A DNA stretch of 64,000 nt from Methyloversatilis universalis EHg5 (GTDB lineage: Bacteria > Pseudomonadota > Gammaproteobacteria > Burkholderiales > Rhodocyclaceae): NCBI RefSeq assembly GCF_000378945.1, contig NZ_KB900539.1:489241-553240 (forward strand), in the 5' to 3' direction. The notes under the pieces were generated by a model. It worked only from the letters and a program-made list of their open reading frames with translations, had not been told where the DNA came from and searched no databases. Position numbers and translations under genes: made by a program. Position 1 is the first letter of the stretch. Every line of letters starts with the position of its first letter. Shown here one piece after another: positions 16,983 through 31,296 of this stretch.

Positions 16983-18023
16983 CTAGGGCTGCGTGCCGCC
17001 CGGCAGCACTTCTCCGTCGTCGAACTTCGACAGCCACTCGATGGTGGTGGGCTTGTAGCGCACCAGACCCTTGTACTCGGCCAGTTCGTTCGGCAGCGTG
17101 CTCAGCACGCGGTGGAAGCGCTTGGCCCAGCGCGGGTGGGTGGCCAGATCGTTCATGCTGGCCAGATAGCCGCGGATCGAGAACAGCATGCCGTTGCTGC
17201 GCGGCAGACGGAACAGGGCCTGCAGTTCGACCCGCAGATGCACCTTGTCACCGACGTTGTCCGGCGTGACGCTGGCACGGTCCGGACCCCACTCGGGGTA
17301 GGTTTCCGGCGAGGTGTCGAGGCGCGGGTTGATGGTCATGGTCCAGTTCAGGCGGCGTACCGGGCGGCTCTGCTGCAGCATGAGCAGATACTTCAGCGCG
17401 CGGTCGAACACGCCCAGTTCGTGGGCCAGCGGCACCGGGCCGTGCCATTCCATGAAGCTCATGCCGGCGTCGAACATGAGCGACCAGTCGGCCTGCGAGG
17501 TGATCATGCCGGAGTCGGCGAACAGGTTGTTGTCGCGCTGGTCCATGATGACGAAATCACCCTGACACTGGCGGCCGATGTACTCGAACGGCGGGCAGGG
17601 CAGCGTTGCGGCGTCGCCGAAGGTGAAGGTCTGGTCGATGCCCAGCGGCTTGTTAACCCAGTGCCAGCGCTCACCGTCCTTGGTCAGCGTGAACAGTTCG
17701 GGGTAGTCGCGCGACAGCGACTCCATGATCAGTTCCAGCGTGTCCCACTCGGCGTCCATCATGTGCGGCAGTGACACGCAGCGGCCCGGGTCGCGCTCGA
17801 GCGTGATCGCGCGGTCACGCATTTCGGCGATGTAGTGTTCGTCGATGTCGAAGGCGTTCTCGAACACCGAACCTTCCGGTCCCTTGGTGTGCGGCTCCAT
17901 GTTGACCGAGTACATGTACTGGTCCTGATGGAAGGGGAAGGGGAAACGTTTGATGGCCTGGGGCGAGTTGCGGTAGGTGTAGGTACCGCGGAAGGTTTCG
18001 TCCGGCTTGAATGCGATGGTCAT
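16983..18023 (-). CDS. Heme-dependent oxidative N-demethylase, catalytic (alpha) subunit
   Basis: A protein of 346 residues of the DUF3445/HODM-alpha family. Family biology: the heme-binding PAS-like subunit oxidises dimethylamine to methylamine plus formaldehyde with O2, using electrons from a ferredoxin-type reductase. Visible family blocks include FPFPFHQDQYMYSVNMEPH near the N-terminus, RAITLERDPGRCVSLPHMMDA, and WNFTM-like RLNWTMTINPRLDTSP in the C-terminal half. Start set by GAGGAG 8 bases upstream. Last gene of the operon GcvT-like, zinc-ribbon subunit, reductase, heme subunit; the reductase ends 14 bases upstream. Confidence 0.88.
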   Translation of the reverse strand: MTIAFKPDETFRGTYTYRNSPQAIKRFPFPFHQDQYMYSVNMEPHTKGPEGSVFENAFDIDEHYIAEMRDRAITLERDPGRCVSLPHMMDAEWDTLELIMESLSRDYPELFTLTKDGERWHWVNKPLGIDQTFTFGDAATLPCPPFEYIGRQCQGDFVIMDQRDNNLFADSGMITSQADWSLMFDAGMSFMEWHGPVPLAHELGVFDRALKYLLMLQQSRPVRRLNWTMTINPRLDTSPETYPEWGPDRASVTPDNVGDKVHLRVELQALFRLPRSNGMLFSIRGYLASMNDLATHPRWAKRFHRVLSTLPNELAEYKGLVRYKPTTIEWLSKFDDGEVLPGGTQP

Positions 18024-18036
18024 GGTGTGCTCCTCC

Positions 18037-18996
18037 TCACAGGTTCAGCGTCAGGCAACCGCCCTTCAGGCGGGAGACGCAGGGCATGATCTTTTTGCCC
18101 GAGGCGCGTTCTTCGGCGCTCAGGTACAGGTCGTGATGGATCAGTTCGCCGCTGGCGTCGACCACTTCCAGTTCGCACTGGCCACAGGCGCCGCCACGGC
18201 ACAGGTAGGGCGCATCGACGCCCTGCTGTTCGATCGCTTCCAGCAGTGACAGGTCGCTCGGCACGGTGAAGGCCTTGCCCGACAGCGTGAGCTGCACGTC
18301 GAACGGTTCGCCGCCGGTCGGCGCCAGGAACTGCTCGCTGTGCAGGTGGCTTTCCGGCCACCCGAGCGCCTTGCCGGCGTTCATGCTGGCGGCCACCATG
18401 CCGCCCGGGCCACAGATGTAGAAGTGGGTGCCCAGCGGGCGGCCGGCCAGCAGCGACGAGAACTCGATCTGTTCGCGGCGCGACTGCACGTAGTGATGGA
18501 TGCGGCCCGGAGCCAGCGCTTCGAGCTCGTCGACGAACACGCCGTACTCCGGCGCGCGGTAGGCGTAATGCACTTCGAAGTCGGCGCCGAGGCGGGCCAG
18601 TTCGCGTGCCTGCGAAAGAATCGGCGTAATGCCGATGCCGCCGGCCACCAGGATGTGGCGGCGGCCGAGGCGGTTCAGCGAGAACAGGTTCACCGGCGCG
18701 GAAATGTCGATGCGCATGCCTTCGCGCGCCTGTTCGTGCAGCCAGCGCGAACCGCCGCGCGAATCTTCCTGCTTGCGCACGGCCACCCGCCAGGTCTTGC
18801 GGTCGGTCGGGTCGCCGAGCAGCGAGTATGGATTGCGGTGCGGGCGGTCGCTCAGCGGCAGCGACAGCACGATGTGGCTGCCGCCGGAATAGATCGGGAA
18901 GTCATCGCCGTCGGTGCGCGACAGGCTGAATTCGCGGATGCCCGGCGCCAGGTCGCGGATGCGTCGGATTTCGACGTTCAGGGATGCGCTGCTCAT
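18037..18996 (-). CDS. Dimethylamine monooxygenase reductase subunit (FMN/FAD and 2Fe-2S)
   Basis: A protein of 319 residues with the layout of phthalate-dioxygenase-reductase-type proteins: flavin domain (RNPYSLLGDP), NAD-binding domain (LVAGGIGITPILSQA; YICGPGGMV) and a C-terminal plant-type ferredoxin with CRGGACGQC...PCVS cysteine ligands. It would pass electrons from NAD(P)H to the heme subunit. Its ATG overlaps the stop of the gene before it (ATGA), so earlier in-frame starts are rejected. Confidence 0.9.
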   Translation of the reverse strand: MSSASLNVEIRRIRDLAPGIREFSLSRTDGDDFPIYSGGSHIVLSLPLSDRPHRNPYSLLGDPTDRKTWRVAVRKQEDSRGGSRWLHEQAREGMRIDISAPVNLFSLNRLGRRHILVAGGIGITPILSQARELARLGADFEVHYAYRAPEYGVFVDELEALAPGRIHHYVQSRREQIEFSSLLAGRPLGTHFYICGPGGMVAASMNAGKALGWPESHLHSEQFLAPTGGEPFDVQLTLSGKAFTVPSDLSLLEAIEQQGVDAPYLCRGGACGQCELEVVDASGELIHHDLYLSAEERASGKKIMPCVSRLKGGCLTLNL

Positions 18997-19586
18997 GGGT
19001 AAGCCACCTCCGCAGCAGGCACTTCGCCCGGCACTTCGGCATCGATCTGGAAGCCCATGTAGGCACCCAGGCGACGGGAGAAGTGATCGCGCACGAACAG
19101 CGATCGGCCACAGCCGCTGCATGAAACGATATTGGTATGCACGCCGCGGGTGATGGTGCGGCAATGGACGCAGAACACCGGGCGCGCCTTGGTGCCCAGC
19201 TGTGCGTGACGGATTTCGTCGCGGCTCACGCCGAAGGTTTCGGCCAGCTGCGAGACCTGCCAGATCGCGTCTTCGGAGCCGGCGAGGTAGATGCGCGTGC
19301 CCATCTGCGCCACGTAGAAGGCGTCACGCAGTACTTCCAGCGCCTCGGCCAGGGTGTGCGCCTCGAGGTAGAGGGCGGTGTCCGGCAGGTTCTGCGACCA
19401 CACGCTGCGGCTGTCGTCGGCCGGGCGCAGATGGACGAGCGTGAGCGTGCCGCCGGGCGGATTGGACAGCAGGCGCTGCGCTAGCGCAGCGTCTTCGGCG
19501 CTGACGAACAGGATGTGGTGCGTGCCGGTACGGTCCCATTCGAGCTCGGCGTAGATCGGCTGGCTTTTGGTGGCTAGGGTGGACAT
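18993..19586 (-). CDS. dmmA: Dimethylamine monooxygenase small subunit (DmmA-like, zinc ribbon)
   Basis: A protein of 197 residues. The N-terminal two thirds form an alpha/beta domain (LEWDRTGTHHILFVSAED...); the C-terminal part has two CxxC pairs (Cys139/142 and Cys156/159, FCVHC and VSCSGCGRS), a rubredoxin- or zinc-ribbon-like site. The family is found with the heme subunit and reductase in dimethylamine oxidation operons. Its role may be electron transfer or assembly. Gene names within dmmDABC vary between sources, so the letter is tentative. Confidence 0.8.
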   Translation of the reverse strand: MSTLATKSQPIYAELEWDRTGTHHILFVSAEDAALAQRLLSNPPGGTLTLVHLRPADDSRSVWSQNLPDTALYLEAHTLAEALEVLRDAFYVAQMGTRIYLAGSEDAIWQVSQLAETFGVSRDEIRHAQLGTKARPVFCVHCRTITRGVHTNIVSCSGCGRSLFVRDHFSRRLGAYMGFQIDAEVPGEVPAAEVAYP

Positions 19587-19663: not shown

Positions 19664-20782
19664 TCAGCGCTTCTTGTCCGGATGGGTGCGCTGACGCAGC
19701 GGGTCGTAGAACGGCGTCGGCACGACCAGCGCGGCCAGCTTGCCGGCCTTGGCTCCGATCGTCAGGCGGGTGCCCAGATTCGAATGCGACGGCTTCAGGT
19801 GCACCATGGCCAGCGACTGCATCAGCAGGCGGCTGTACGAGGCCGAGGTGACCACGCCGACTTCCTTCTCGCCGTCATAGACCTTGGCGCCTGCTTCCAC
19901 CGCTTCGTGGTGGGTCACGATCATGCCGGCCTGCTTGACGCGCTCACGGCCCTTCAGTGCGAGCACGGCGGCCTTGCCGATGTAGTCGCCCTTCTTGTCG
20001 AGGTCGACCGCCCAGTCCATGTTCACTTCCCACGGCGTGGTGTCGCCTTCCGGCATTTCGAACGGGAAGAACAGCAGGCCGCCTTCGACGCGGGTCAGAT
20101 CCAGCGCGGTCCAGGAGCAGGGGATGACGCCCTTCGGCTTGCCGGCTTCCACGATGGCGTCCCACAGGAACACGGCGTCAGCAGCGGTGCAGTACACCTC
20201 GTAGCCGCGCTCGCCGGAGTAGCCGCCGCGGCCCAGAGTCACCTTCTTGCCGAACAGCGTGGTTTCGACGTGGTTGAAGTAGGGCAGCGCAGCCAGGTTG
20301 GCCGGGGTGTGCGGGGACAGCACGTCGAGCGAGACCGGGCCCTGCAGCGACAGGATGTGCACATCCAGGTCGGCGGCGATGGTCACGTTCTTGCCGACCG
20401 ACAGTTCGGCCAGGGTCTTCGGCGTGGCGCCGCTGCCGTGCGAAATGCGGAATTTGTCGGCGGCATCGCGGATGATCATGATGTCATCGACCAGTGCGCC
20501 GGCTTCGTTCACTTCGCCGCCGAGGCGGGCGGTGCCCGGCTTCAGCTTGGTCACGTCGATGGTGACCAGGCGGTCGATCACGGCTTCGGCGTCCGGGCCG
20601 GACACGTTCACGATGTTCAGCGCCGACACGTCGTACAGGCCGGCGCGCGAGCGGGTGGCGATCACTTCATCGTGCGGGCAGCTGTTGTAGCTCCACGGGA
20701 TCGGCATGTTGTTCCACGTATCGCCATCCAGCTTCGAGCCGAGCTGACGGTGACGCTCGTTCAGAATCGAATTCCTTTGCAT
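19664..20782 (-). CDS. GcvT-like THF-dependent aminomethyltransferase of the dmm operon
   Basis: A protein of 372 residues of the GcvT fold: DVSALNIVNVSGPDAEAVIDRL (about 49-70), LSLQGP, GYSGERGYEV and a C-terminal barrel (YSRLLMQSLAMVHL). In related DMA demethylases the GcvT-like partner takes the formaldehyde released at the heme site and loads it on tetrahydrofolate. First gene of the dmm operon. Start at 20782 has GGAGAACCGGGAA upstream; longer frames overlap the promoter. It is transcribed from the shared-motif promoter at 20838-20887. Confidence 0.88.
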   Translation of the reverse strand: MQRNSILNERHRQLGSKLDGDTWNNMPIPWSYNSCPHDEVIATRSRAGLYDVSALNIVNVSGPDAEAVIDRLVTIDVTKLKPGTARLGGEVNEAGALVDDIMIIRDAADKFRISHGSGATPKTLAELSVGKNVTIAADLDVHILSLQGPVSLDVLSPHTPANLAALPYFNHVETTLFGKKVTLGRGGYSGERGYEVYCTAADAVFLWDAIVEAGKPKGVIPCSWTALDLTRVEGGLLFFPFEMPEGDTTPWEVNMDWAVDLDKKGDYIGKAAVLALKGRERVKQAGMIVTHHEAVEAGAKVYDGEKEVGVVTSASYSRLLMQSLAMVHLKPSHSNLGTRLTIGAKAGKLAALVVPTPFYDPLRQRTHPDKKR

Positions 20783-20837: not shown

Positions 20838-20887
20838 ATTCTGTTGCCGGGGGCAGGGGCGGACAATTCTCAAGAGGGGTTACCCCC
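20838..20887 (-). promoter_or_regulatory. Promoter of the dmm operon with shared C1 motif
   Basis: Read on the minus strand: GGGGGTAACCCC then TCTTGAGAATTGT (20863-20887), with -35 TTGTCC (20866-20861), 17-bp spacer and -10 CAGAAT (20843-20838). The upstream block is palindromic (GGGG TAA CCCC). The same arrangement is found at 25379-25428, 25613-25663 and 28760-28808. Confidence 0.65.
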
Positions 20888-20953
20888 TAGGTGGTATGTG
20901 CGCCGCCGCATGGGCTGCGTAGGCTTTGCCCATCACGACAGCGGAGACGCAGG

Positions 20954-21352
20954 ATGGCGACAGCGGGCGGTTACACGGGTGCGTGCCTGTGCGGCGGGGT
21001 GCGATACGCGATCAGGGGCACGCTCGATGCGCCGGTGGCCTGTCACTGCAGCCAGTGCGCACGCACCAGCGGCCACCATGCGGTGATGGCCTGCTGTGCC
21101 GACGCGGATCTGGACGTATCCGCCGGCGGCACGCTGCGCTGGTACGCCTCATCAGCCAGCGTGAAGCGCGGCTTCTGCGAGCGGTGCGGCGGCAACCTGT
21201 TCTGGAAGGACGCGACCAGCGCGGTCACCTACGTGACCGCCGGCACGCTGGACCGGCCGGCCGGGCTGAAGCTGTCGGCCCACATCTTCGCCGGCTCGCG
21301 CGCCGACTATTACGACATCGACGACGATCTGCCGCGCAGCGACGCCTGGTAG
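20954..21352 (+). CDS. GFA/CENP-V family zinc protein
   Basis: A protein of 132 residues with the GFA zinc motifs: GACLCGGVRY, CHCSQCARTSG (CxCxxC) and CERCGGNLFW (CxxC). The family was named after a glutathione-dependent formaldehyde-activating enzyme, although most members have unknown substrates. Placement between the dmm and tmm-tdm operons, where formaldehyde is released, makes a role in formaldehyde handling plausible. Start set by GGAGACGCAGG; the frame to 20891 would overlap the dmm promoter. Confidence 0.8.
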   Translation: MATAGGYTGACLCGGVRYAIRGTLDAPVACHCSQCARTSGHHAVMACCADADLDVSAGGTLRWYASSASVKRGFCERCGGNLFWKDATSAVTYVTAGTLDRPAGLKLSAHIFAGSRADYYDIDDDLPRSDAW

Positions 21353-21457
21353 GCCGTTTCCGGCCCCGCGGCGGCGGTCGGGCTGCGCCGGATGACGACT
21401 CCATCGCGACCGGCCGCGTACCCCGTGCGGGCCGGCCGGCACATCGGCGCCTGAAAT

Positions 21458-21495
21458 GAAAAAGGGCGAGGAACGGCTTTCGCCGCTCCGCGCCC
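21458..21495 (-). terminator. Intrinsic terminator of the tmm-tdm operon
   Basis: On the minus strand GGGCGCGGAGCGGC pairs with GCCGTTCCTCGCCC around GAAA, followed by TTTTT. It lies 20 bases after the tdm stop. Confidence 0.92.
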
Positions 21496-21514
21496 TGCTG
21501 CCTGCGGACTGCGA

Positions 21515-23797
21515 TCAGGCGCGCACGCGCGCCTTGGTCGGGTCGTAGTGCGAGGTCTTCACCTGTGTGGCCTTGATGCGCTTCTGGTGGCCGTCCAGCT
21601 TGCCGACTTCCACCGTGGCGCCCAGTTCGACCGCCGACACGTCCAGTCGCGCCAGCGCGATGGTCTTGCCGAGTATCGGCGAACGGGTGGTGCTGGTGAT
21701 CTGGCCGATCTGCGCGCGACCGTTGAAGATCGGATCGCCGTGCGCCACCAGTTCGGTGCCTTCGATGTCGAGGCCGACCATGACGCGCGCCGGGTGGGCC
21801 TTGCGGCGCTCCAGCGCGGCCTTGCCGACGTAGTCATCCTCCTTGTCGGCCGCCACCGCGAAACCGATGCCGGCTTCGAACGGGTCGGTCTGGTCGCAGA
21901 AGTCGTACTCGGCGAAGATGAGCGCGGCTTCGATGCGCAGCATGTCGAGCGCGGCCAGGCCCATCGGCGCAATGCCGTGCGGCTCGCCGGCTTTCGCGAT
22001 GGCGTCCCACACCTGCACCGCGTGCTTCGGGTGGCACCACACTTCATAGCCCAGTTCGCCGGTGTAACCGGTGCGCGACACGACGACCGGCAGGCCCTCG
22101 ATCTTGCCCACGGTCAGGCGGAACCACTTCAGTTCGTCCATCGACGCATTGCCCGGCGGCGTGACCACGATTTCGCGCAGGATGTCGCGCGACTTCGGGC
22201 CCTGCACCGACAGGTTGTGCAGCTGGTCGGTGGAGGACTTCACCCACACGCGCAGGTTGTTCTTCGCCGCCAGTTCGCGCAGCCACACGCCGCAGTAGTC
22301 GTCGCCGCACACCAGACGGAAGTTGTTCTGGCACAGCCGGAACACCGTGCCGTCGTCGATCATGCCGCCGTGCTCGTAGCAGAGCGCGGTGTAGACGATC
22401 TGGCCGACCGCCAGCTTGCGGATATTGCGCGTCGTGGCCAGCTGCAGCAGCTGCTCGGCGTCCGGGCCGGTGATTTCGAACTTGCGCAGCGCGGACAGAT
22501 CGATCATCACCGCGCGTTCGCGGCAGGCCCAGTATTCGTCGATCGGGCCGTTGGACGAGAACGAATCCTGCAGCCAGAAGCCGCGGTACTCGACCATGCG
22601 GCGGGTGAGCGCGGAGGTGCGGGCGTGGAAGCCGGTCTCGCGGGTCAGTTTTGGGGCGGCGTCGGGCGTCATGCGGTGTGCGATCCCTTTGGAGAAGTTG
22701 TTCGAGGCGTCATAGACCCGGACGTGGATGTCGGTGGGGTTCCAGCCGTTGGCCGGGTCGATGTCGTCGGTGCAGGACGAGGAGGCGCAGACCAGATCGG
22801 TCATCGCGCGCAGCAGCACGTAGTCGCCGGCACGCGACCACGGTTCGTCCAGGCTGATGCTGTCGTCGTGATTGACGATGGTGTTGTAGAAGAAGTTGAT
22901 CGCCGGCCAGCCTGCGCGACGCGCCACGCCGTGCGGTTCGAGCGCGTTGTTGAAGTTGTCGCTGCAGTTGGCGTGACCGGGGTAACCCATGTCGTCGTAG
23001 TACTTCGCGCTGCAGGCGAGCATGAAGGTGTCGTGGCGGCCGACGGTGTCGCGGACCACCTCGACCAGCGGTACCTGGCGCTCGTCGTAGTACTTGTTCA
23101 GCAGGCCGGGGCCGGGGCTGGCCGAACCCATGAGCGTGCGCGTGGTGGTCGGGTCGAGGTCGTATTCCTGTCCCTGCGCCAGCGCGGCAGCGTCGAAGGC
23201 GAGGAAGTCGGAGCACTGGCGGCCATCGACGTCGATCACCTGGATGTAGTCACCGGCCTTCACGCGGTAGGCGTGCGCGGTGCCGGCACCGATGCGCAGG
23301 TCGAGCACCGGCGGAGCCAGCGGCGGCGGCGCGATGCCGGCCACCGGTTCGGCGCACTCGACGTCGGCGATCAGTTCGGTGGGCGCGTTCTGCGCGTCGG
23401 GCTGCATGTCTTCGCCCGGTGCGTGCAGCGCGCAGCGCACGGCGCCCGGCGCGGCAATGATGCGCTGGCCGCCGGCCAGTCCGTCGCTGCCGAACACCTC
23501 GGCACGGACCAGGCTCCAGCCGGCCGGCGCACCGCTGAGCAGCGCGCGGGCGAAGGCCGGCACGTCGGCCGGGGTGGTGACGGGCAGACCGGGCAGCATG
23601 GCTTCCGCGATGCCGGCCGGGCCTGCGACATAGAGATGGCCCGGTTGCAGACCTTCCGGGTCGGTCAGCGTGAGGCGGTCGCCGGCGGCCAGGTCGAAGG
23701 AGACCGAGCAGCCACCGGCGGCGACGTGGCGGACATGGCGTGCTCGCGTTCGCGCGGCAGTCGCCGGATTCAGCGTAGGTTCGACGATCGTGTTCAT
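21515..23797 (-). CDS. tdm: Trimethylamine N-oxide demethylase (TMAO to DMA + formaldehyde)
   Basis: A protein of 760 residues with two halves, as in known Tdm enzymes. The N-terminal part ends in a DUF1989 domain (about 165-375) and the C-terminal part is GcvT-like (about 390-756, with FEITGPDAEQLL, LSVQGPKSRD and GYTGELGYEVW). Cys262, Cys278 and Cys342 keep the 16- and 64-residue spacing that I recall for the zinc site of the Methylocella enzyme. DUF1989 cleaves TMAO to DMA and formaldehyde; the THF domain captures the formaldehyde. Second gene after tmm, 110 bases apart. Confidence 0.92.
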   Translation of the reverse strand: MNTIVEPTLNPATAARTRARHVRHVAAGGCSVSFDLAAGDRLTLTDPEGLQPGHLYVAGPAGIAEAMLPGLPVTTPADVPAFARALLSGAPAGWSLVRAEVFGSDGLAGGQRIIAAPGAVRCALHAPGEDMQPDAQNAPTELIADVECAEPVAGIAPPPLAPPVLDLRIGAGTAHAYRVKAGDYIQVIDVDGRQCSDFLAFDAAALAQGQEYDLDPTTTRTLMGSASPGPGLLNKYYDERQVPLVEVVRDTVGRHDTFMLACSAKYYDDMGYPGHANCSDNFNNALEPHGVARRAGWPAINFFYNTIVNHDDSISLDEPWSRAGDYVLLRAMTDLVCASSSCTDDIDPANGWNPTDIHVRVYDASNNFSKGIAHRMTPDAAPKLTRETGFHARTSALTRRMVEYRGFWLQDSFSSNGPIDEYWACRERAVMIDLSALRKFEITGPDAEQLLQLATTRNIRKLAVGQIVYTALCYEHGGMIDDGTVFRLCQNNFRLVCGDDYCGVWLRELAAKNNLRVWVKSSTDQLHNLSVQGPKSRDILREIVVTPPGNASMDELKWFRLTVGKIEGLPVVVSRTGYTGELGYEVWCHPKHAVQVWDAIAKAGEPHGIAPMGLAALDMLRIEAALIFAEYDFCDQTDPFEAGIGFAVAADKEDDYVGKAALERRKAHPARVMVGLDIEGTELVAHGDPIFNGRAQIGQITSTTRSPILGKTIALARLDVSAVELGATVEVGKLDGHQKRIKATQVKTSHYDPTKARVRA

Positions 23798-23812
23798 GTC
23801 TTGGAAGCACCT

Positions 23813-23854
23813 GCGACCCGGCGTGTCCGAGGGAGGTCGGACAGACCGGGTCGC
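23813..23854 (-). promoter_or_regulatory. Large hairpin between tmm and tdm
   Basis: In the tmm-tdm intercistronic RNA, GCGACCCGG pairs with CCGGGTCGC, a 3-nt internal loop follows, then GTCCGA pairs with TCGGAC around a hexaloop. It ends 16 bases before the tdm ATG and may stabilise the message, or lower or gate tdm translation. The hexaloop CCTCCC does not fit the A1/G4 rule of ANTAR targets. Confidence 0.5.
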
Positions 23855-23907
23855 GTCAGGATGGATCGATCAGCAGGTCCGGCGCGGTGGCGTCAGACCT
23901 GGGCGCG

Positions 23908-25269
23908 TCAGGCCTGTTCGGTCGATTCCGGCTCGTTCAGATAGGCCTTGAGCGAGTCGTCGAGCGCTTCCAGCCACGAGGTGTGGTGCGGCGTGGCCAT
24001 GGTGCCGGTCATCAGCGAGCGGTAGCACTTGTTGCGGTAGCCCATGATGTCTTCGTACTTGTCCTGCTTCCATTCCAGGAAAGTGCGGTTCACTTCGGGA
24101 ATCGGGAAGCTCGGATAGTCGGTGCCATCGATCAGGTGCTGGATGTACTTGCCCTGGAATTCGAACATCTGCTGGGCGTCTTCCAGCGTCAGTTCCTCTT
24201 CGCGCCACTTCATGTCCTCGGCGTGCATCTCTTCGTACGACGGCACCGGCAGGCGGCCGAGAATGACGTCGCGCGCGTACCAGGCCTGGGCGTCGAACAT
24301 GTTGAAGCTGTACCACTGATCCTGCATGCCCAGGTACATCAGCTGCGGGTTCTCCTCCCACATGATGCCCTTGTACAGATTGAGCGGCCACAGGCGGTTG
24401 TCGGTCTTCAGGCGCAGCTCTTCGGCCAGGAAGGGGAAATGGTGCTTGTAGCCGGTGCACAGGATGATTGCATCGATGTGCTTGCTGGTGCCGTCGGCGA
24501 AGTGCGCGGTCTTGCCGTCCACGCGCAGCAGCTGCGGCTTCTCTTCCCAGTTGGCGGGCCACTTGTAGCCCATCGGGTTGGTGCGGTAGCAGCTGGTGAT
24601 CGAGCGGGCGCCGTACTTGTAGCACTGCGAGCCGATGTCTTCCGCCGAGTAGCTGGCGCCGACGATGAGCACGTCCTTGTCCTTGAATTCCAGCGCGTCG
24701 CGGAAGTCGTGGGCGTGCAGCACGCGGCCGCCGAAGCTTTCGAAGCCCGGGAAGTAGGGCACGTTCGGGGTCGAGAAGTGACCGCTGGCGACGACGACGT
24801 AGTCGAACTCTTCCGAGTAGGTCACGTCCTGGTCGTAGTTGTGCACGGTGACCGTGAACTTCTTGGTCGCGTCGTCAAAGGTGACGTTGCGGGCGGCGGT
24901 GTTGAAGCGGATGTACTTGCGCACGCCGGCCTTTTCAACGCGGCCCTTGATGTAGTCCCACAGGACTTCACGCGGAGGGTAGGAGCCCATCGGGCGACCG
25001 AAGTGTTCGTCGAAGGTGTAGTCGGCGAATTCCAGACATTCCTTCGGGCCGTTGGACCACAGATAACGGTACATGCTGCCGTGCACCGGCTCGCCGTGCT
25101 CGTCCAGGCCGGTGCGCCAGGTGTAGTTCCACATGCCGCCCCAGTCGGACTGCTTTTCGTAGCAGACGATCTCGGGAATATCGGCACCCTTGGCCTGGGC
25201 TGACTGGAAGGCCCGGAGCTGGGCAAGGCCGCTGGGGCCGGCACCGATGATGGCAACGCGCTTCTTCAT
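23908..25269 (-). CDS. tmm: Trimethylamine monooxygenase (flavin-containing, Tmm)
   Basis: A protein of 453 residues of the bacterial FMO family: FAD motif GAGPSG (9-14), the FMO fingerprint [12 protein letters not shown], and NADPH motif GASYSAED; further hallmarks are the [11 protein letters not shown] and [15 protein letters not shown] blocks seen in marine Tmm proteins. It oxidises TMA to TMAO with NADPH and O2. The neighbouring tdm supports TMA rather than indole or sulfide as substrate. Start is the ATG before [13 protein letters not shown] with AGAGGGA upstream. First gene of the tmm-tdm operon. Confidence 0.93.
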
Positions 25270-25378
25270 GATCTGTATCCCTCTTCTGTGGTCCGTGTGT
25301 GGATACGACCGCGGCATGTTCCTGTCCGCGCGGTCGCGGGCTGGACGCAGGACTGTCGCCGCGTCTCAGGTGCGGCGA

Positions 25379-25428
25379 ATGATGCGAAGGCGGATCAACC
25401 CCCACAATTCTCAAGAGGGATTACCCCC
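25379..25428 (-). promoter_or_regulatory. Promoter of tmm-tdm with shared C1 motif
   Basis: Minus strand: GGGGGTAATCCC then TCTTGAGAATTGT (25428-25404), -35 TTGTGG (25407-25402), 17-bp spacer, -10 CATCAT (25384-25379). The upstream motif differs from the dmm copy at one position in this stretch. A further GGGG/CCCC pair (AACCCCTTACCCCTTTGGGG) lies just upstream. Confidence 0.65.
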
Positions 25429-25612
25429 AAAGGGGTAAGGGGTTTTGCGGCGCTGCGGCATACGGCTGCCGCGAGAACGCTGCGCAGCGGGGGCGGGTGT
25501 TCGGATCGTGGGCGCTGGCGCGGTTGCCGGCCCGGGCGTCATTCCTTCTGCATGCAGCGACGGCGCTCAGAAGCGCAGCAGGAGAGGGAGCCGGGCGCGC
25601 GCTTACCTCTTT
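25429..25612. other. Divergent spacer between tmm and the outer-membrane protein promoter
   Basis: No convincing gene. GC-rich with short hairpins (GCGGCGCTGCGGC; TGCGCAGC). It separates two divergent promoters that carry the same motif pointing outward. Confidence 0.6.
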
Positions 25613-25663
25613 GTGGGTAATCCCTTGTGAGAATTGTTCCGACAACTGTGCGCTTCCAATAAT
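25613..25663 (+). promoter_or_regulatory. Promoter of the outer-membrane protein gene with shared C1 motif
   Basis: GTGGGTAATCCC then TTGTGAGAATTGT (25613-25637), -35 TTGTTC (25634-25639), 18-bp spacer, -10 AATAAT (25658-25663). The gene starts 310 bases downstream, leaving a long leader with two notable hairpins. Confidence 0.6.
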
Positions 25664-25802
25664 CGGCCCGACATCGCAACACCGTGCACTCCTGCCGGTC
25701 GCGAAGTGCGGGGAGATCAGTGTGACGCAGCGCCACTGCCATTCGTACCACCGCTCGCCGGACTGCCTTGCGGCGTCCGCTCCGCCCGCCCTTTCCTGTC
25801 CG

Positions 25803-25864
25803 CCGGCTGCATCGACGCAGCCGGAGGCATCTCCGCTTCACCCCGTCCCGAGTATCGAGGTTCG
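25803..25864 (+). promoter_or_regulatory. Candidate ANTAR-binding tandem hairpins in the leader RNA
   Basis: Hairpin 1: CCGGCTGC / GCAGCCGG (8 bp, 25803-25810 and 25817-25824) around the hexaloop ATCGAC. Hairpin 2: CGAGT / GTTCG (5 bp with two G-U pairs, 25849-25853 and 25860-25864) around ATCGAG. The linker is 24 nt. Known rule: ANTAR regulators bind two hairpins whose six-base loops carry A at position 1 and G at position 4; both loops do. Hairpin 2 overlaps an alternative pairing CCCGA (25847-25851) with TCGGG (25880-25884). No U-rich terminator follows, so classic antitermination is not shown. Confidence 0.45.
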
Positions 25865-25973
25865 CATCCGGCAGCGCCGTCGGGTCGCGGACCGACTCAT
25901 AACCGGTTGGCTATGGGCAGGCCTTCCGTTTCTCAAATCGCCCGAAACCGTGGATCAACAGAGGGAGAACTCC

Positions 25974-26765
25974 GTGTCAAATCATCGACGTCATCGCAGC
26001 ACCCTGGGCGCAGCCATGCTTGCGCTGTTCGCCGTACCGTTCTGTGCGCAGGCGGAAGAGGCCCCGGCCCCTTCGTACACCATCACGTCGAACATCGGCG
26101 TGTTCTCGCAGTACATCTTCCGCGGCATTTCGTACACGCAGGAAAACCCGGCGGTGCAGGGCGGCTTCGATTTCGCGCACGAGAGCGGCGCCTATCTGGG
26201 CATCTGGGGCACCAATGTGAGCGATCTGGCGCTGTCGAACGCGACCGGCGAGATCGACGTGTACGGTGGCTATGCCAAGACCTACGGCGACTGGACGTTT
26301 GACGTGGGCTTCCTGCAGTTCATTTTCCCGGGCGGCAAGTATGATCCGTCGGGCGAGAGCCTGAACACGCTGGAACTGAACGCGGCGGTGACCTGGAAGT
26401 TCATCCAGCTGAAGTACTCGCATTCGGTGACCGACTACTTCGGTTTCAACGACAAGACCTTCGGTCTGGGTCGTGGCGACTCGGATGGTTCGCACTACCT
26501 CGAGGCGAACGCGAACTACGAGTTCCTGCCGACGTGGCAGCTGAACCTGCACGTGGGTCACCAGAAGGTGAAGAACTACGAGGAGTACAACTTCACCGAC
26601 TGGAAGGTGGGCGTGACGAAGAGCTTCGACGGTGGCTGGCAGGCAGCGGTGGCCTATATCGACACCAATGCCGACAAGAACTTCTACACCATCTGCGACA
26701 ACGGCATCCGCTGCAAGGACACCGGCGACAGCAAGTGGCTCGCCTACATCAAGCGCACCTTCTGA
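25974..26765 (+). CDS. Outer-membrane beta-barrel protein (TIGR02001 type)
   Basis: A protein of 263 residues starting with GTG after GAGGGAGAA. The signal peptide ends near FCAQA; the mature protein is rich in alternating aromatic and polar strands (ITSNIGVFSQYIFRGISYTQ at its start), typical of the Gcw_chp/TIGR02001 family often annotated as porin-like. Being under the same promoter motif as tmm and dmm and just upstream of a permease, it may admit methylated amines through the outer membrane (inference). Confidence 0.8.
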   Translation: MSNHRRHRSTLGAAMLALFAVPFCAQAEEAPAPSYTITSNIGVFSQYIFRGISYTQENPAVQGGFDFAHESGAYLGIWGTNVSDLALSNATGEIDVYGGYAKTYGDWTFDVGFLQFIFPGGKYDPSGESLNTLELNAAVTWKFIQLKYSHSVTDYFGFNDKTFGLGRGDSDGSHYLEANANYEFLPTWQLNLHVGHQKVKNYEEYNFTDWKVGVTKSFDGGWQAAVAYIDTNADKNFYTICDNGIRCKDTGDSKWLAYIKRTF

Positions 26766-26774
26766 TGAATCCCT

Positions 26775-26802
26775 GGGCGTCGGCGTAAGCCGGCGCCCTT
26801 TT
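26775..26802 (+). terminator. Terminator or attenuator between the outer-membrane protein and permease genes
   Basis: GGGCGTCGGC pairs with GCCGGCGCCC around GTAA, followed by TTTT. It lies only 20 bases before the permease start, so it may set the permease at a lower level than the outer-membrane protein by partial read-through. Confidence 0.75.
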
Positions 26803-26821
26803 CGTATCGAGGGAAATGACC

Positions 26822-28528
26822 ATGAGCAGCAATGCAGATGTAATCGGCAGCATGTCTGGCGGGGCTTCGGCCAGCCGGGCTGAAAATGCCGCGCTGCACC
26901 GGAAGATCGACTGGACCGGTGCATTCTGGGTGGCCAGCGGCGTGCCCGCGCTGGTGCTGTTTTCGATCGGTGCCATCGCGGCGACCGTGGGCAAGCCGTC
27001 CTGGCTGGTGTGGACGCTGTCGATCGGCTTCGGTTTCATCCAGGCCTTCACCTATGCCGAAATCGCCGGCCTGTTCCCGCACAAGTCGGGTGGCGCGTCG
27101 GTGTACGGCGCGGTCGCCTGGGTGCGCTACAGCAAGCTGATCGCACCGGTGTCCGTGTGGTGTAACTGGTTCGCCTGGTCGCCGGTGCTCGCCATCGGTT
27201 CAGGGCTGGCCGCGGGCTACATTCTCGGCGCGCTGTTCCCGGCCGATGCCGCGATCAATACCTGGCAGCTCACGCTGGTCGATCTGAGTTCGATCAAGGC
27301 CGGGCTGTCGCTGCGCATCAACGCGACCTTCCTGGTCGGCGTGGTCATCCTGCTGGCGGTGTTTGCCATCCAACACGGTGGCATCCTGCGCTCTGCACGG
27401 ACCACCATGGTGCTGGGTGTGGTCGCGCTGATTCCGCTGATGCTGATCGCGCTGGTGCCGCTGCTGACCGGTGACATTCCGTCGGCCCACTTCTCGCCGA
27501 TGCTGCCGATCGCTCGCGACGCGCAGGGGCTGGTGATCGACGGTGCCTGGGACATGGCCGGCATCACGCTGATGGCGGGCGGCCTGTTCATCGCTGCGTG
27601 GTCTACCTACGGCTTCGAAACCGCGGTCTGCTACACCCGCGAATTCAAGGACCCGAAGAAGGACACCTTCAAGGCGATCTTCTATTCCGGCCTGCTGTGC
27701 ATCGTGGTGTTCACGCTGGTTCCGCTGGCCTTCCAGGGTCATCTGGGCCTGGGTGAAGTGGTGACCCCGCCGGTGGTGGAAGCCGACGGTACGGTGTCGA
27801 CTCCGGCGGTCTACAGCGGCATGCTGGCCCCGGAAATCTACAGCGGCATGGGCGTGGCGAACGTGATGTCGCACATGGTCGGCGGTGGCGAGATCGTGGC
27901 CAACCTGCTGGTGGTGATGCTGGTGCTGGCGGTGCTGCTGTCCATCATGACCTCGATGGCCGGCTCGTCGCGCACGCTGTACCAGGCATCGGTCGATGGC
28001 TGGCTGCCGCGCTACCTGTCGCACGTGAATGAGCACGGCGCCCCGACGCACGCGATGTGGACCGACCTCGGCTTCAACCTCATCCTGCTGCTGATGTCGG
28101 ACTATGTGTTCGTGCTGGCCTGCTCCAACGTCGGTTACATCATGTTCAACTTCCTGAACCTGAATTCCGGCTGGATCCACCGCATCGACCGTCCGGACTG
28201 GGAGCGTCCGTTCAAGGCACCGAAGATCGTGCTCGGACTGGGCGTCATCCTGGGCTTCGTGAATCTGTCGCTGATGGGTCTGGGCGCCGACATCTACGGT
28301 GCCGGCACGCTGACCGCCGGTCTGGTGTTCGCCTCGCTCATCATCCCGGTGTTCCTGTACCGCCACTATGTGCAGGACAAGGGCCAGTTCCCGGATGCGA
28401 TGCTCGAGGACATGCACCTCGGTGACGCGCTGCCCAAGGGCGGCAAACGCGCCGGCATCCTGCCCTACGTCACGCTGGCAGCTGGCGTGGTGGTGGTGAT
28501 CGTGGCGCACAACCTCGCGGTGTACTGA
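26822..28528 (+). CDS. APC-family amine/amino acid permease
   Basis: A protein of 568 residues with 12 or more hydrophobic segments. The first, ASGVPALVLFSIGAIAATVG, and the later YAEIAGLFPHKSGGASVYGAVAW match the conserved TM1 and TM2-3 region of amino acid/polyamine/organocation transporters. Gene position within the TMA/DMA cluster suggests uptake of a methylated amine or a related compound; the family alone does not show this. Of two close ATGs (26816, 26822) the second has the better spacing from GAGGG. A periplasmic insert of about 40 residues lies around residues 305-350. Confidence 0.82.
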   Translation: MSSNADVIGSMSGGASASRAENAALHRKIDWTGAFWVASGVPALVLFSIGAIAATVGKPSWLVWTLSIGFGFIQAFTYAEIAGLFPHKSGGASVYGAVAWVRYSKLIAPVSVWCNWFAWSPVLAIGSGLAAGYILGALFPADAAINTWQLTLVDLSSIKAGLSLRINATFLVGVVILLAVFAIQHGGILRSARTTMVLGVVALIPLMLIALVPLLTGDIPSAHFSPMLPIARDAQGLVIDGAWDMAGITLMAGGLFIAAWSTYGFETAVCYTREFKDPKKDTFKAIFYSGLLCIVVFTLVPLAFQGHLGLGEVVTPPVVEADGTVSTPAVYSGMLAPEIYSGMGVANVMSHMVGGGEIVANLLVVMLVLAVLLSIMTSMAGSSRTLYQASVDGWLPRYLSHVNEHGAPTHAMWTDLGFNLILLLMSDYVFVLACSNVGYIMFNFLNLNSGWIHRIDRPDWERPFKAPKIVLGLGVILGFVNLSLMGLGADIYGAGTLTAGLVFASLIIPVFLYRHYVQDKGQFPDAMLEDMHLGDALPKGGKRAGILPYVTLAAGVVVVIVAHNLAVY

Positions 28529-28571
28529 GATCCGCGAACCGCCTGCGGTCCGCCGCAGGCGGCGCAGCAAG

Positions 28572-28604
28572 GGCCGTCCGGACTGATGTCCGGGCGGCCT
28601 TTTT
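28572..28604 (+). terminator. Intrinsic terminator after the permease
   Basis: GGCCGTCCGGAC pairs with GTCCGGGCGGCC (one G-T mismatch) around TGAT, followed by TTTTT. An additional hairpin CCGCCTGCGG/CCGCAGGCGG lies just before it at about 28539-28563. Confidence 0.9.
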
Positions 28605-28648
28605 CTTTGCGTGAACCCGCTGCATCGTCCGTCCGGTCGTGCAGGGAG

Positions 28649-28669
28649 CGTGATGCGGAATGCATCACG
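28649..28669. promoter_or_regulatory. Palindrome upstream of the candidate small RNA
   Basis: CGTGATGC and GCATCACG form a perfect 8-bp inverted repeat with a 5-base centre, about 110 bases upstream of the small-RNA promoter. It could be a regulator binding site. The rest of 28605-28757 holds nothing I recognise. Confidence 0.35.
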
Positions 28670-28759
28670 CATGGATTCTGAAGCGGGGTGCCGGGAGGGG
28701 CGCAGGAAAAGGACGGGTCACCCGCCTGTCATTGCGGTGCCTGCGGTTCTACCCCCTAT

Positions 28760-28808
28760 GGCTTACTCCCTCTTGAGAATTGTGGGCCAGCAGGGTGATC
28801 GCAATAAT
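28760..28808 (+). promoter_or_regulatory. Orphan promoter with shared C1 motif
   Basis: GGCTTACTCCC then TCTTGAGAATTGT (28760-28783), -35 TTGTGG (28780-28785), 17-bp spacer, -10 AATAAT (28803-28808). It has the best -10 of the four copies. No plus-strand protein gene follows. Confidence 0.6.
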
Positions 28809-28814
28809 GCTTCA

Positions 28815-28985
28815 CATGCACCGGGCCGGTGCAGGCCTGTCCCGGCGGGCCGGGCAGACTTCGTCTGCTTCAGCGCTTCATCCGGCCGGCGCACTCGAGG
28901 GAACCCGGGAGCCCTCGGCTCTCCTCACCTTGGGCCGGCATGCGACATCAGCTCCTCCTGATATGCGCTGCCGGCGTCTTTTTTT
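28815..28985 (+). ncRNA. Candidate small RNA of the methylated-amine regulon
   Basis: From the promoter at 28760-28808 to a strong intrinsic terminator lies a unit of about 170 nt without a credible protein. Predicted local hairpins: GCACCG GGC CGGTGC; CTG-CCCGG/CCGGG-CAG; GCAGAC TTC GTCTGC; CGAGGG...CCCTCG. The terminator is GCCGGCA...TGCCGGC with an inner ATCAG/CTGAT stem and the loop CTCCTC, then seven T (28979-28985). It converges on the ANTAR regulator gene, stopping three bases short of its stop codon. Small RNAs that titrate an ANTAR protein are known for eut systems; I found no A1/G4 hexaloop here, so the role is open. Confidence 0.5.
28934..28985 (+). terminator. Intrinsic terminator of the candidate small RNA
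   Basis: GCCGGCA (28934-28940) pairs with TGCCGGC (28969-28975); inside, GCGACATCAG faces CTGATATGCG around CTCCTC; T-run 28979-28985. The T-run is on the plus-strand side only, so it does not serve the minus-strand regulator gene. Confidence 0.85.
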
Positions 28986-28987
28986 GG

Positions 28988-29605
28988 TCAGCGCATCCGG
29001 GCCAGATTTTCGGCCGGTGCCTGCATCAGATCCCGTGCCACGTCCTCGATCTTGCGCCGCTGAGTGCGCGCGGTCTTGCGCAGCATTTCGAAAGCCGGTT
29101 GCCGCTCGATGCGCAGGCGTTCCATCAGGATGCCGACCGCGATGCTGATTTCCCGTCGCTCGTCGAGCGCGCGCTGAAGGTTCTGGCCGTTGCGGTGCAG
29201 GCGGCGCAGGTCTTCCGAACGTGCCAGCGCGGTACGCAGCGTAGGCAGCAGCTGTTCCACATCGATCGGCTTGACCAGATAGCCCAGTGCGCCGCGCTCC
29301 ACCGCGCTGCGTACCCGACCCGGATCGCCGAATGCGGTCAGGAAAATGACCGGCAGCGACAGCTGGGCGTTGAGCAGCGCCGCCAGCTCCAGGCCCGACA
29401 TGCCCGGCAGCTGTTCGTCGAGAATGACCAGATCGAAGGCGTGTTCCGCGATCTGGGGCATTGCCTCCTCGGCCGAACGGGCGACGGCGACACGGTAGCC
29501 GTGATCGCGCAGGCCGGCCGACAGCGTGGCGGAAATCAGTCTGTCGTCCTCGACCAGCAGCAGGTGAGGGCGCTGGTCCGGTTCTTCGTCCTGTGGGGTG
29601 CTCAT
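28988..29605 (-). CDS. Response regulator with ANTAR RNA-binding domain
   Basis: A protein of 205 residues. Receiver domain with acidic pair (ED at 19-20), phospho-acceptor Asp63 (DLVILDEQLPG) and Lys112 (YLVKP). A short coiled linker leads to a C-terminal ANTAR domain (about 138-200: ALDERREISIAVGILMERLRI...AFEMLRKTARTQ). ANTAR proteins bind paired RNA hairpins and usually prevent transcription termination; AmiR, NasR and EutV are examples. It follows its kinase by 25 bases and is the EutV counterpart of an EutVW-like pair. Its neighbours make the TMA/DMA genes the likely targets. Confidence 0.9.
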   Translation of the reverse strand: MSTPQDEEPDQRPHLLLVEDDRLISATLSAGLRDHGYRVAVARSAEEAMPQIAEHAFDLVILDEQLPGMSGLELAALLNAQLSLPVIFLTAFGDPGRVRSAVERGALGYLVKPIDVEQLLPTLRTALARSEDLRRLHRNGQNLQRALDERREISIAVGILMERLRIERQPAFEMLRKTARTQRRKIEDVARDLMQAPAENLARMR

Positions 29606-29630
29606 CTTGGAAATCTCTTCAAAGCGCTCT

Positions 29631-31121
29631 TCAAAGCGTGATGATGGGGGGGCGCAGAAGCAGGTGTGCCTGCACCCGGTCGGCGTGCTGACGGTAGGTC
29701 AGTTCCGCATGTTCGGCTGGCAGGAGTGCCGCCAGCAGTTCCAGGCCCTGACCAAGGTGCCGGTGAGCCTGGAAGTCGAATCCTTCGGGCAGTCGTCCGT
29801 GATTGGCGATGACGATGCGTGCCCCTTCGCTGCACAGTTCGAGATCGATGCCGATGCCGTCCTCGTCTCCGTCGCTGCGGTGGTGTTTCACCGCATTCAT
29901 CAGCAGTTCGTTCAGCACGACGGCCAGCGGCACCATTTCGGCGTCGGCGAGGATGCGCGTGTCGCCGCTGCGGTCATTCACCTGCAGCCGCACCGGCGAC
30001 TGGAACAGGCCTTCGATGCTGCCGGCGATCATGCGCAGCAGATCGCCCAGCACCAGCGGTTCGCCCGGATGGCTGCCCTGCAGTTCGTGGATGACCGCGA
30101 TCGACCTGACCTGACTGATGGCGCCGGTCAGCGCGCTGGCCAGACCCGGATGCTGGCCGGCGCAGCGTCGCAGCAGACCGACCACGCCCTGCAGGCTGTT
30201 CTTCATCCTGTGATGCGCCTCGCGCACCAGAGTTTCCGACTGCCGCTCCGCCTGCGCCAGCGTGTGCGCCTCGGCCTGCTTGCGTACCGTGATGTCTTCG
30301 GCCACGCCAGCCACCCGCACCCGGCCGCCCTGTGGCTGCCAGGGGAAGGCGCGGCAGTGCAGCCACATGAGCTGTCCGCCGGGGGCGACCATCCGGACCT
30401 CGACCTGGGCGTTGTCGCCCTGCGACTGCGCGGCCAGGAAGGTGTCGAATCGTGGCCGGTCGGGTGGTGCGATCAGCGTGCGCCAGTGCGCGATGTCATC
30501 CCTGCTCGGAACGCCGGACAGCGAGGTCAGTTCGGAAAAGGCCGGGCTGCCGTAATGGATGCGGCCGGTCTGCGGATCGCTCACCCAGAAGATTTCGCGG
30601 ATGTGCTCGGCCAGCAGGTAGAAGCGCTCCTGCGCCGCCTGCATTTCCGCTTCCGCCCGTTTGCGGGCCCGGATGTCGCGTACCACCGCGATCACATAGT
30701 CACTGGCGTCGAGATGGATGCGTGCGCCGCTGACGTCCACCGGAATGATTTCGCCGTCGCGCGCGACGATCAGACCGTCGTCGTAGCGGGCGCTGCCGAC
30801 AGTGCGGACCTGGTCGAAAGCCGCAGCGATGCGCACGGTTTCGCTCGCCGGATGGATCTGCGATACCGGACGCCCGGCCAGCTCGTCGCGCCGGTAGCCA
30901 AGCAGCGCCTCGGCGGCGGCGTTGGCGTCACGCAGTTCGCCGTCGGGTGAAAGCAGGAACAGGGCGTCCGGCACGCCGTCGAACAGCGGCTGCCATGCCG
31001 GCCGGTCTATGTCTTTGGGATATTGAGGGGCGAGTGGCGCAGCGGCCTGCACCGAAACGGTGCCTGTCGCCCCCGACCCCAAGTGCCGGGACGCAACCGG
31101 AATAGGTGTGCTGCGGGCCAT
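29631..31121 (-). CDS. PAS-PAS sensor histidine kinase, HisKA_2 type (EutW-like)
   Basis: A protein of 496 residues without transmembrane segments. Two PAS domains (about 40-150 and 165-285, each followed by a PAC-like VVRDIRARK or VAEDITVRK) precede a HisKA_2 phospho-acceptor region EAHHRMKNSLQGVVGLLRRC and an HATPase domain (VLNELLMNAVKHH). HisKA_2 kinases are the usual partners of ANTAR regulators. The PAS domains suggest a cytoplasmic small-molecule or redox signal. ATG 31121 has AGGGGG eight bases upstream; ATG 31163 would add 14 residues. Confidence 0.88.
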   Translation of the reverse strand: MARSTPIPVASRHLGSGATGTVSVQAAAPLAPQYPKDIDRPAWQPLFDGVPDALFLLSPDGELRDANAAAEALLGYRRDELAGRPVSQIHPASETVRIAAAFDQVRTVGSARYDDGLIVARDGEIIPVDVSGARIHLDASDYVIAVVRDIRARKRAEAEMQAAQERFYLLAEHIREIFWVSDPQTGRIHYGSPAFSELTSLSGVPSRDDIAHWRTLIAPPDRPRFDTFLAAQSQGDNAQVEVRMVAPGGQLMWLHCRAFPWQPQGGRVRVAGVAEDITVRKQAEAHTLAQAERQSETLVREAHHRMKNSLQGVVGLLRRCAGQHPGLASALTGAISQVRSIAVIHELQGSHPGEPLVLGDLLRMIAGSIEGLFQSPVRLQVNDRSGDTRILADAEMVPLAVVLNELLMNAVKHHRSDGDEDGIGIDLELCSEGARIVIANHGRLPEGFDFQAHRHLGQGLELLAALLPAEHAELTYRQHADRVQAHLLLRPPIITL

Positions 31122-31296
31122 GAGTGGCGCCCCCTGTATGCCGTTGTGCCGAAGCTCCGACATAGACGGTGCTGCGCGGGGGTCGGGCGCGGCACGACTG
31201 CTGTCCGTTCGGACCGGATCTGACGTCCGGCTTGCTTCATTAACGGATCATTTTATCGCATGGTTCCGGTCTTGCGAGCGAAAGGTGAACGCGCGT

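Follow-up and report, generated by a model that had tools for sequence, protein, structure and literature searches.

A probable NarL-type operator at trimethylamine catabolism promoters of Methyloversatilis, with a predicted small RNA among its targets

In a stretch of 64,000 nucleotides from Methyloversatilis universalis EHg5 (contig NZ_KB900539.1, positions 489,241 to 553,240; hereafter the window, its genome being G000 and C1 the contig label used with genome coordinates) four copies of one promoter motif lie among genes for methylated-amine catabolism. With good confidence the motif can be read as a composite site for activation by a NarL-family regulator, NarL2, that is paired with a divergent NarX-type kinase, NarX2 (these names, and NarX1-NarL1 for the nar-side pair of the same genome, were coined in this analysis). 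As judged from sequence comparison, it is most likely a trimethylamine (TMA) regulon operator of NarL type that is bound by NarL2. The evidence consists of the sites and their conservation, their phyletic and positional link to TMA genes, their match to the NarL site and the linkage of regulator and TMA genes; a covarying RNA hairpin is found behind the fourth site.

Architecture and distribution of the composite sites

All four copies (starting at 20863, 25404, 25613 and 28760) are located where an earlier note on this DNA had placed them, and the -10 boxes and spacings it had read hold as well (CAGAAT, 17 bp; CATCAT, 17 bp; AATAAT, 18 bp; AATAAT, 17 bp). The two blocks from which it had composed the motif are exact in copies 1 and 2 (both on the minus strand) and degenerate in the two plus-strand copies: copy 3 reads TTGTGAGAATTGT, with two mismatches within block 2, and copy 4 has GGCTTACTCC in place of GGGTAAYCCC (three mismatches to block 1) and an exact block 2. 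Alignment of the four copies showed a 16-bp inverted repeat, TACC-N8-GGTA, common to all of them just upstream of the GGGTAAYCCC block and followed at a fixed distance by GAGAATTG, which covers the -35 region (Table 1). The GGG/CCC palindrome with a regulator overlapping -35, as proposed in the earlier note, had to be replaced accordingly: the relevant palindrome is TACC-N8-GGTA, near -57 and upstream of -35. GGGTAAYCCC was rejected as an operator, being the junction of the right half of this repeat with the next block and absent from copy 4. Assuming that the -10 box begins at -12, the operator is centred at -56.5 (-57.5 for the porin promoter).

A genome-wide search, as the earlier note had suggested, confined the composite to the window: the 33-bp pattern TACC-N8-GGTAAYCCCTNNTGAGAATTG with at most three mismatches occurs at exactly four places in the 4.09-Mb genome, the four window sites, and is not scattered over the remainder (reversed control, 0). 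TCTTGAGAATTGT with at most one mismatch was found at three places, all inside the window; its confinement to the window within this genome ruled it out as a general promoter element. Taken alone at up to three mismatches, block 2 is not enriched in the window (4 found vs 5.0 expected from shuffles).

No named regulator with such a site had been known to the earlier note, yet the site fits the NarL 7-2-7 consensus TACYYMT-NN-AKRRGTA, and a NarX/NarL-type pair accompanies the genes. The 12 distinct operators collected from 10 genomes of the genus match 10-14 of its 14 specified bases, and TACCCCTAAAGGGGTA has been reported as an engineered NarL site (PMC4549865). Within the 64-kb window a score of 13 is reached by sites 2 and 3 only, which are also two of the three places in the genome within one mismatch of the consensus. 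The third (G000:C1:3741902-3741917, locus L208) lies ~3.6 kb from LuxR-type genes at 3745506 and 3746339.

The link to methylated amines that the earlier note had drawn was borne out across the 13 genus genomes: Tdm is encoded in 10, the exact 13-mer of the motif is present in the same 10, and the other three lack both. Over these 10 motif genomes 33 sites were counted in a table gathered by GAGAATTG, located before the porin gene (10/10), tmm (10/10), gcvT (9/10, the missing one because the G003 contig stops short of gcvT) and the predicted small RNA (sRNA; 4/10, namely G000, G001, G004 and G010). In the window three copies do precede dmm, tmm-tdm and the outer-membrane protein gene, as had been noted, with the refinement that copy 1 directly precedes the gcvT-like gene heading the dmm genes; behind copy 4 there is no large gene on the same strand. 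The exact 13-mer lacking an operator occurs in two of 48 other genomes (G039, G054), which was taken as chance.

An even sample of 399 genomes from the order was also searched for the composite pattern; six genomes matched (reversed control, 0), yielding six sites outside the window's own genome. Five of the six lie in front of methylated-amine genes, namely permease genes (three sites), a trimethylamine dehydrogenase gene and a gcvT paralogue, and each of these five is in a cluster with NarX2/NarL2 homologues. In G060 and G107 the single site is located between the homologues of this pair and a trimethylamine N-oxide (TMAO) permease gene; G151 has two sites, before the TMAO permease and before trimethylamine dehydrogenase (best chain 1djn, 1011 bits); in G086, where tmm, tdm and dmm genes are also present, the site precedes a gcvT paralogue. 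The remaining site, in G079, is at the start of an unrelated gene and was taken as chance. A matrix scan added weak sites, one upstream of gcvT in G060 and one close to a G005 permease gene (21-23 bits, the training sites scoring 41-59).

The NarX2-NarL2 pair and competing regulators

A search for LuxR-type domains in the 13 genus genomes identified one beside the TMA genes in G003, G006, G008, G011 and G012, where (in five of the 10 motif genomes) a NarL-like regulator gene lies behind a NarX-like kinase gene and next to the TMAO permease gene. NarL2 orthologues (87-100% identity) occur in 10 of the 13 genomes, comprising nine of the 10 motif genomes and G005. In the window's genome the pair is encoded at about C1:410084-412329, at a distance of ~98 kb from site 1 and adjacent to a second porin gene. 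Outside the genus, NarL2 homologues in the same cluster as the sites are 56% (G060), 71% (G086) and 57% (G151) identical when larger regions are considered.

NarL2 resembles the NarL of the Escherichia coli NarX-NarL system in three respects, namely its score, its recognition helix and an operator that fits the 7-2-7 consensus. The NCBIfam NarL cut-off of 250 is passed by the proteins of the window's genome (281), G012 (276), G060 (268) and G107 (271), and the G012 protein has receiver (PF00072) and LuxR-type (GerE, PF00196) domains that are both above cut-off. The recognition helix is TVKVHIKH in 10/10 NarL2 sequences and TVKVHVKH in E. coli NarL and the G060 and G107 regulators, so that NarL2 retains K-V-K at K188, V189 and K192, which we take to be the DNA-contact residues of the NarL helix. 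By descent NarL2 may be nearer either to NarL or to the NarL-like regulators of other Tmm loci, the fork concerned having support of 84/59 in a second phylogenetic tree, from which L095, L154 and the truncated L059 sequence were excluded; in this tree the G060 and G107 regulators grouped with NarL2 (94/88). The pair differs from the E. coli system in its targets, which are TMA catabolism genes, in the operator position at -57 together with a fixed second element, and in the kinase: NarX2 has the kinase core (HisKA_3 and HATPase_c), but by inspection nothing like a P-box between its two hydrophobic segments. Its scores are under the NCBIfam cut-offs (199 vs 578 for NarX, 214 vs 553 for NarQ), which do not separate it from NarX1 because NarX1 fails them too (208 and 272).

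That the nar-side pair NarX1-NarL1, which adjoins narK- and narG-like genes, uses the sites and puts TMA catabolism under nitrate control is unlikely. The site type is that of NarL, G004 has a NarL1 orthologue and is without NarL2, and NarX1 carries (by inspection) VNEAGRMRMQAYRMS, a nitrate-type periplasmic P-box. NarL1, however, stays below the NarL cut-off (213 vs 250) and has an altered recognition helix, TVKIHVQH, in 10/10 sequences; the nar region (L205) contains neither a composite site nor a strong 7-2-7 repeat (best score 12), and the pair in the TMA clusters of G003, G006, G008, G011, G012, G060, G086, G107 and G151 is NarX2-NarL2, not NarX1-NarL1.

The association of NarL-like regulators with TMA genes extends to named Tmm loci, of which the best 80 of 410 relatives were inspected. 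A full-length NarL-like regulator is present in 49, a partial match in 19 and none in 12; the open reading frame (ORF) adjoining the regulator encodes an ELHD-type kinase motif in 45 of the 49. Within 350 bp upstream of tmm the pattern TAYYY-N6-RRRTA occurs in 24 of the 49 regulator loci compared with 0.41 expected from base shuffles (20/45 vs 0.40 with Methyloversatilis excluded), in one of the 19 partial-match loci (L059) and in two of 11 regulator-less loci, both from Methyloversatilis; L070, with less than 150 bp upstream, was dropped from this count. The partial matches inspected proved to be LuxR-type helices fused to another domain, except L059, where the locus ends inside a NarL2-like gene (68-70% identical). 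The 45 regulators of other Tmm loci make up a single clade, separate from both NarL2 and NarL. In L048 (3576-4280), L049, L051 and similar loci, a protein with the NarL-like DNA-binding helix N-terminal and a PAS-like part behind it is encoded near dmm genes of loci that lack the full-length regulator; such proteins are possibly a one-component variant. Locus L070 (CAMDGF010000047.1), on a contig titled as a Klebsiella pneumoniae metagenome-assembled genome (MAG), encodes tmm, tdm and gcvT products 80, 69 and 77% identical to those of the window and is probably a mis-binned contig.

Several observations weigh against NarL2 as the regulator of these sites. Sites 1 and 4 score 11 and 10, a level shared by 172 window positions (own or other), and places within one mismatch of the NarL consensus are not enriched in number (three in the genome, three in the reversed control). 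In G004, a MAG, motif and Tdm occur without a NarL2 orthologue (43-44% at best), and in G005 NarL2 is present and Tdm absent. The second porin gene, which neighbours narX2-narL2 in the genome of the window (L166), is without such a site, as are the 350 bp next to tmm in Burkholderia and Paraburkholderia loci that encode a full-length regulator. In the part of PMC7419079 considered here, E. coli NarL activates from -44.5, -67.5 and -77.5, single sites between known positions mostly gave poorly active promoters, and -57 is not among the active positions reported. Finally, NarL does not explain the GAGAATTG element, whose invariance is partly due to selection because the genus sites were gathered by it, even though its presence in all 10 tmm and all 10 porin promoters is not a selection effect.

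In another explanation, the main regulator would act on the GAGAATTG block over -35 and the 7-2-7 repeat would be a second input, two proteins cooperating. The block keeps its distance to the operator across the genus and exceeds a -35 hexamer in length. The five TMA sites of other families have it as GGGAATTG, GAGAATTG or GACAATTG, and GAATTG or GAGTT is seen by eye in many Pseudomonas tmm promoters. We consider this possible but rather doubtful: there is no candidate protein for the block, which could be a mere -35 contact, and the operator half varies in its bases yet stays an inverted repeat, as expected of a protein-bound palindrome.

Under the preferred NarL2 reading, phosphorylated NarL2 dimers would occupy the 16-bp 7-2-7 repeat, whose centre is near -57, and assist initiation by sigma-70 RNA polymerase at weak promoters with the fixed GAGAATTG in their -35 region. 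The targets in the window would be gcvT-dmm, tmm-tdm, the porin and TMAO permease genes, and an RNA of ~170 nt with an intrinsic terminator; as the signal we infer a methylated amine or a catabolite, not nitrate.

A predicted small RNA behind site 4

From the sequence, copy 4 appears to drive an sRNA and not a protein gene. A protein gene at this place was considered and rejected, since in G010 the stretch to the terminator folds well (z -3.6, equalled by 0 of 200 shuffles) and the following gene has the opposite orientation; in the window the plus-strand terminator (28934-28985) is just short of the end of the convergent response-regulator gene. The fold in the window is unremarkable (z -1.5, equalled by 19 of 200 shuffles), so that it is the conservation, together with hairpin and terminator, that argues for an RNA. 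In four genomes the 3' part retains CTCTCCTCACCTT and the terminator hairpin with its CUCCUC loop. No Rfam family matched the window at gathering score, the best weak match being to the sRNA Esr41 (16 bits vs 102).

Small RNAs with C-rich anti-Shine-Dalgarno loops exist. The predicted RNA is like them in having two CUCCUC stretches, one within the terminator loop, and differs in that no Rfam family matches it. The CUCCUC stretches could pair with Shine-Dalgarno sequences, and the RNA, if made as predicted, would act on translation. Among ten genes of the TMA locus dmmC gave the best pairing (-20.6 and -21.9 kcal/mol); with one stretch or the other, -20 kcal/mol or better was also obtained for 4 of 27 ORF starts elsewhere in the window, and genomes that lack the sRNA retain the GTGAGGA of dmmC as well. 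The TMA regulon under NarL2 would include the sRNA in four of the 10 motif genomes.

A covariance model built from the four sequences retrieved six further strong copies, and all ten were used as training rows of a second model. The module consists of CTCACC, the CUCCUC-loop hairpin and a T run, with compensatory changes in 5 of 13 pairs (ten sequences), and is possibly a 3' untranslated region RNA family. Two copies in G005 (L183 9463-9540 and 11673-11750) are each directly behind a TMAO permease-like gene, of which one was called by model and one by eye. One further copy each was found in G000 (C1:396263-396342; L186 8264-8343), G001, G010 and G005, in G000 and G005 behind a permease gene; type III glutamine synthetase and glutamate-synthase-like genes near the G000 copy look like the N-methylglutamate pathway. 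Weak matches beyond the ten strong copies were obtained in G002, G007, G037 and G045, and with the second model in G015, G044, G045 and G051; those of G002 and G007 looked unrelated.

The sRNA lies beside genes for a REC-ANTAR response regulator and a PAS-HisKA_2 kinase (28988-31163), an arrangement like that of EutV/EutW-type systems, and in G005 two module copies are within 6 kb of the ANTAR gene. The pair might control the regulon by antitermination, the promoters being constitutive. ANTAR proteins bind RNA, and this explanation is very improbable: an orthologue is at the locus in five of the 10 motif genomes (not found at 65% identity or above in the other five) and is present also in three genomes without motif or Tdm (G005, G007, G009). 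Differences from EutV/EutW-type systems are that pair and motif do not go together across genomes and that no ANTAR-type hairpins were found in the sRNA, the loop of which is CUCCUC. Paired A1/G4 hexaloops occur in one of four leaders, that of the porin gene (25803-25885, plus strand; ATCGAC and AGCGCC); these two hairpins resemble ANTAR targets and are not conserved in relatives. An ANTAR protein as regulator of these promoters was rejected on the grounds that the hexaloops are in a single leader and the orthologue does not follow the motif. A PAS-GGDEF-EAL gene separates the ANTAR gene from the sRNA or permease in G010 (L122 11894-14008, minus strand) and G005 (L183 7347-9470, plus strand), and is absent from the equivalent place in the window.

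Gene content of the window and biological significance

The genes behind the sites were identified by family models (Table 1), the start codon of the porin gene being picked from the sequence. A DDE transposase gene (8210-9748, plus strand) lies between cell-surface genes and the methylated-amine genes.

Table 1. Composite sites, predicted RNA and genes of the window (window positions).
Feature	Position	Strand	Details
Site 1	20864-20896	-	operator TACCACCTAGGGGGTA (20881-20896) + element ending GAGAATTG; -10 CAGAAT 20838-20843; before gcvT-dmm
Site 2	25405-25437	-	operator TACCCCTTTGGGGGTA (25422-25437) + element; -10 CATCAT 25379-25384; before tmm-tdm
Site 3	25604-25636	+	operator TACCTCTTTGTGGGTA (25604-25619) + element; -10 AATAAT 25658-25663; before porin and TMAO permease
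Site 4	28750-28782	+	weaker operator TACCCCCTATGGCTTA (28750-28765) + element; -10 AATAAT 28803-28808; before sRNA; 3 mismatches to composite
Predicted sRNA, ~170 nt	28815-28985	+	start inferred from -10; conserved in 4 genomes (G000, G001, G004, G010)
sRNA terminator hairpin	28934-28985	+	loop CUCCUC, then T run; compensatory change in 4/16 pairs, 4 sequences
gcvT-like gene (folate-binding demethylase family)	19664-20782	-	first behind site 1; Pfam GCV_T
Dimethylamine monooxygenase-like genes (three ORFs)	16983-19586	-	Pfam HODM_asu-like, DmmA-like
tmm, trimethylamine monooxygenase	23908-25269	-	NCBIfam NF058570, 839 bits vs cut-off 675
tdm, trimethylamine N-oxide demethylase	21515-23797	-	NCBIfam NF053776, 1235 bits vs cut-off 1100
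Gcw_chp outer-membrane protein (porin) gene	25974-26765	+	GTG start; Pfam PF09694 on longer ORF 25497-26765
TMAO permease	26816-28528	+	NCBIfam NF053774, 864 bits vs cut-off 690
REC-ANTAR response regulator and PAS-PAS-HisKA_2 kinase (EutV/EutW-like)	28988-31163	-	beside sRNA

As sources of nitrogen and carbon, TMA and TMAO are widespread. In the part of PMC13390433 considered, TmaR (AraC family) and TmoR (GntR family) of the marine Roseobacter Ruegeria pomeroyi coordinate tmm, tdm and dmm genes, and TmaR homologues are reported also in some Betaproteobacteria. The control proposed here is likewise a coordinated one of tmm, tdm and dmm genes and differs in that its regulator proteins belong to other families. 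Among 40 window ORFs run against Pfam, the rest of the genome lying outside the search, there was no AraC- or GntR-type domain. Among the literature matches listed, no title or abstract opening mentions control of TMA genes by a NarL-type regulator. The new elements are a putative NarL-type regulator linked with TMA catabolism across several families and with two enzyme routes, the fixed second element, and a predicted RNA under a like promoter.

TmaR and TmoR come from marine Roseobacter (PMC13390433), and a regulator, an operator and a regulon are here proposed for the beta- and gammaproteobacterial pathway. Tentatively, and at somewhat less than even confidence, NarX2 may sense a methylated amine or a catabolite, and a nitrate-type system may have been re-purposed as a widespread beta- and gammaproteobacterial TMA regulator, set before the TMA enzyme that a genome happens to have, be it Tmm/Tdm or trimethylamine dehydrogenase. 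The sRNA would add a feed-forward loop in some Methyloversatilis, with a related module behind TMAO permeases and behind genes resembling the N-methylglutamate pathway. A NarL-type operator would be in use outside nitrate respiration, linked to two unrelated TMA-oxidising enzymes and with a co-regulated sRNA predicted.

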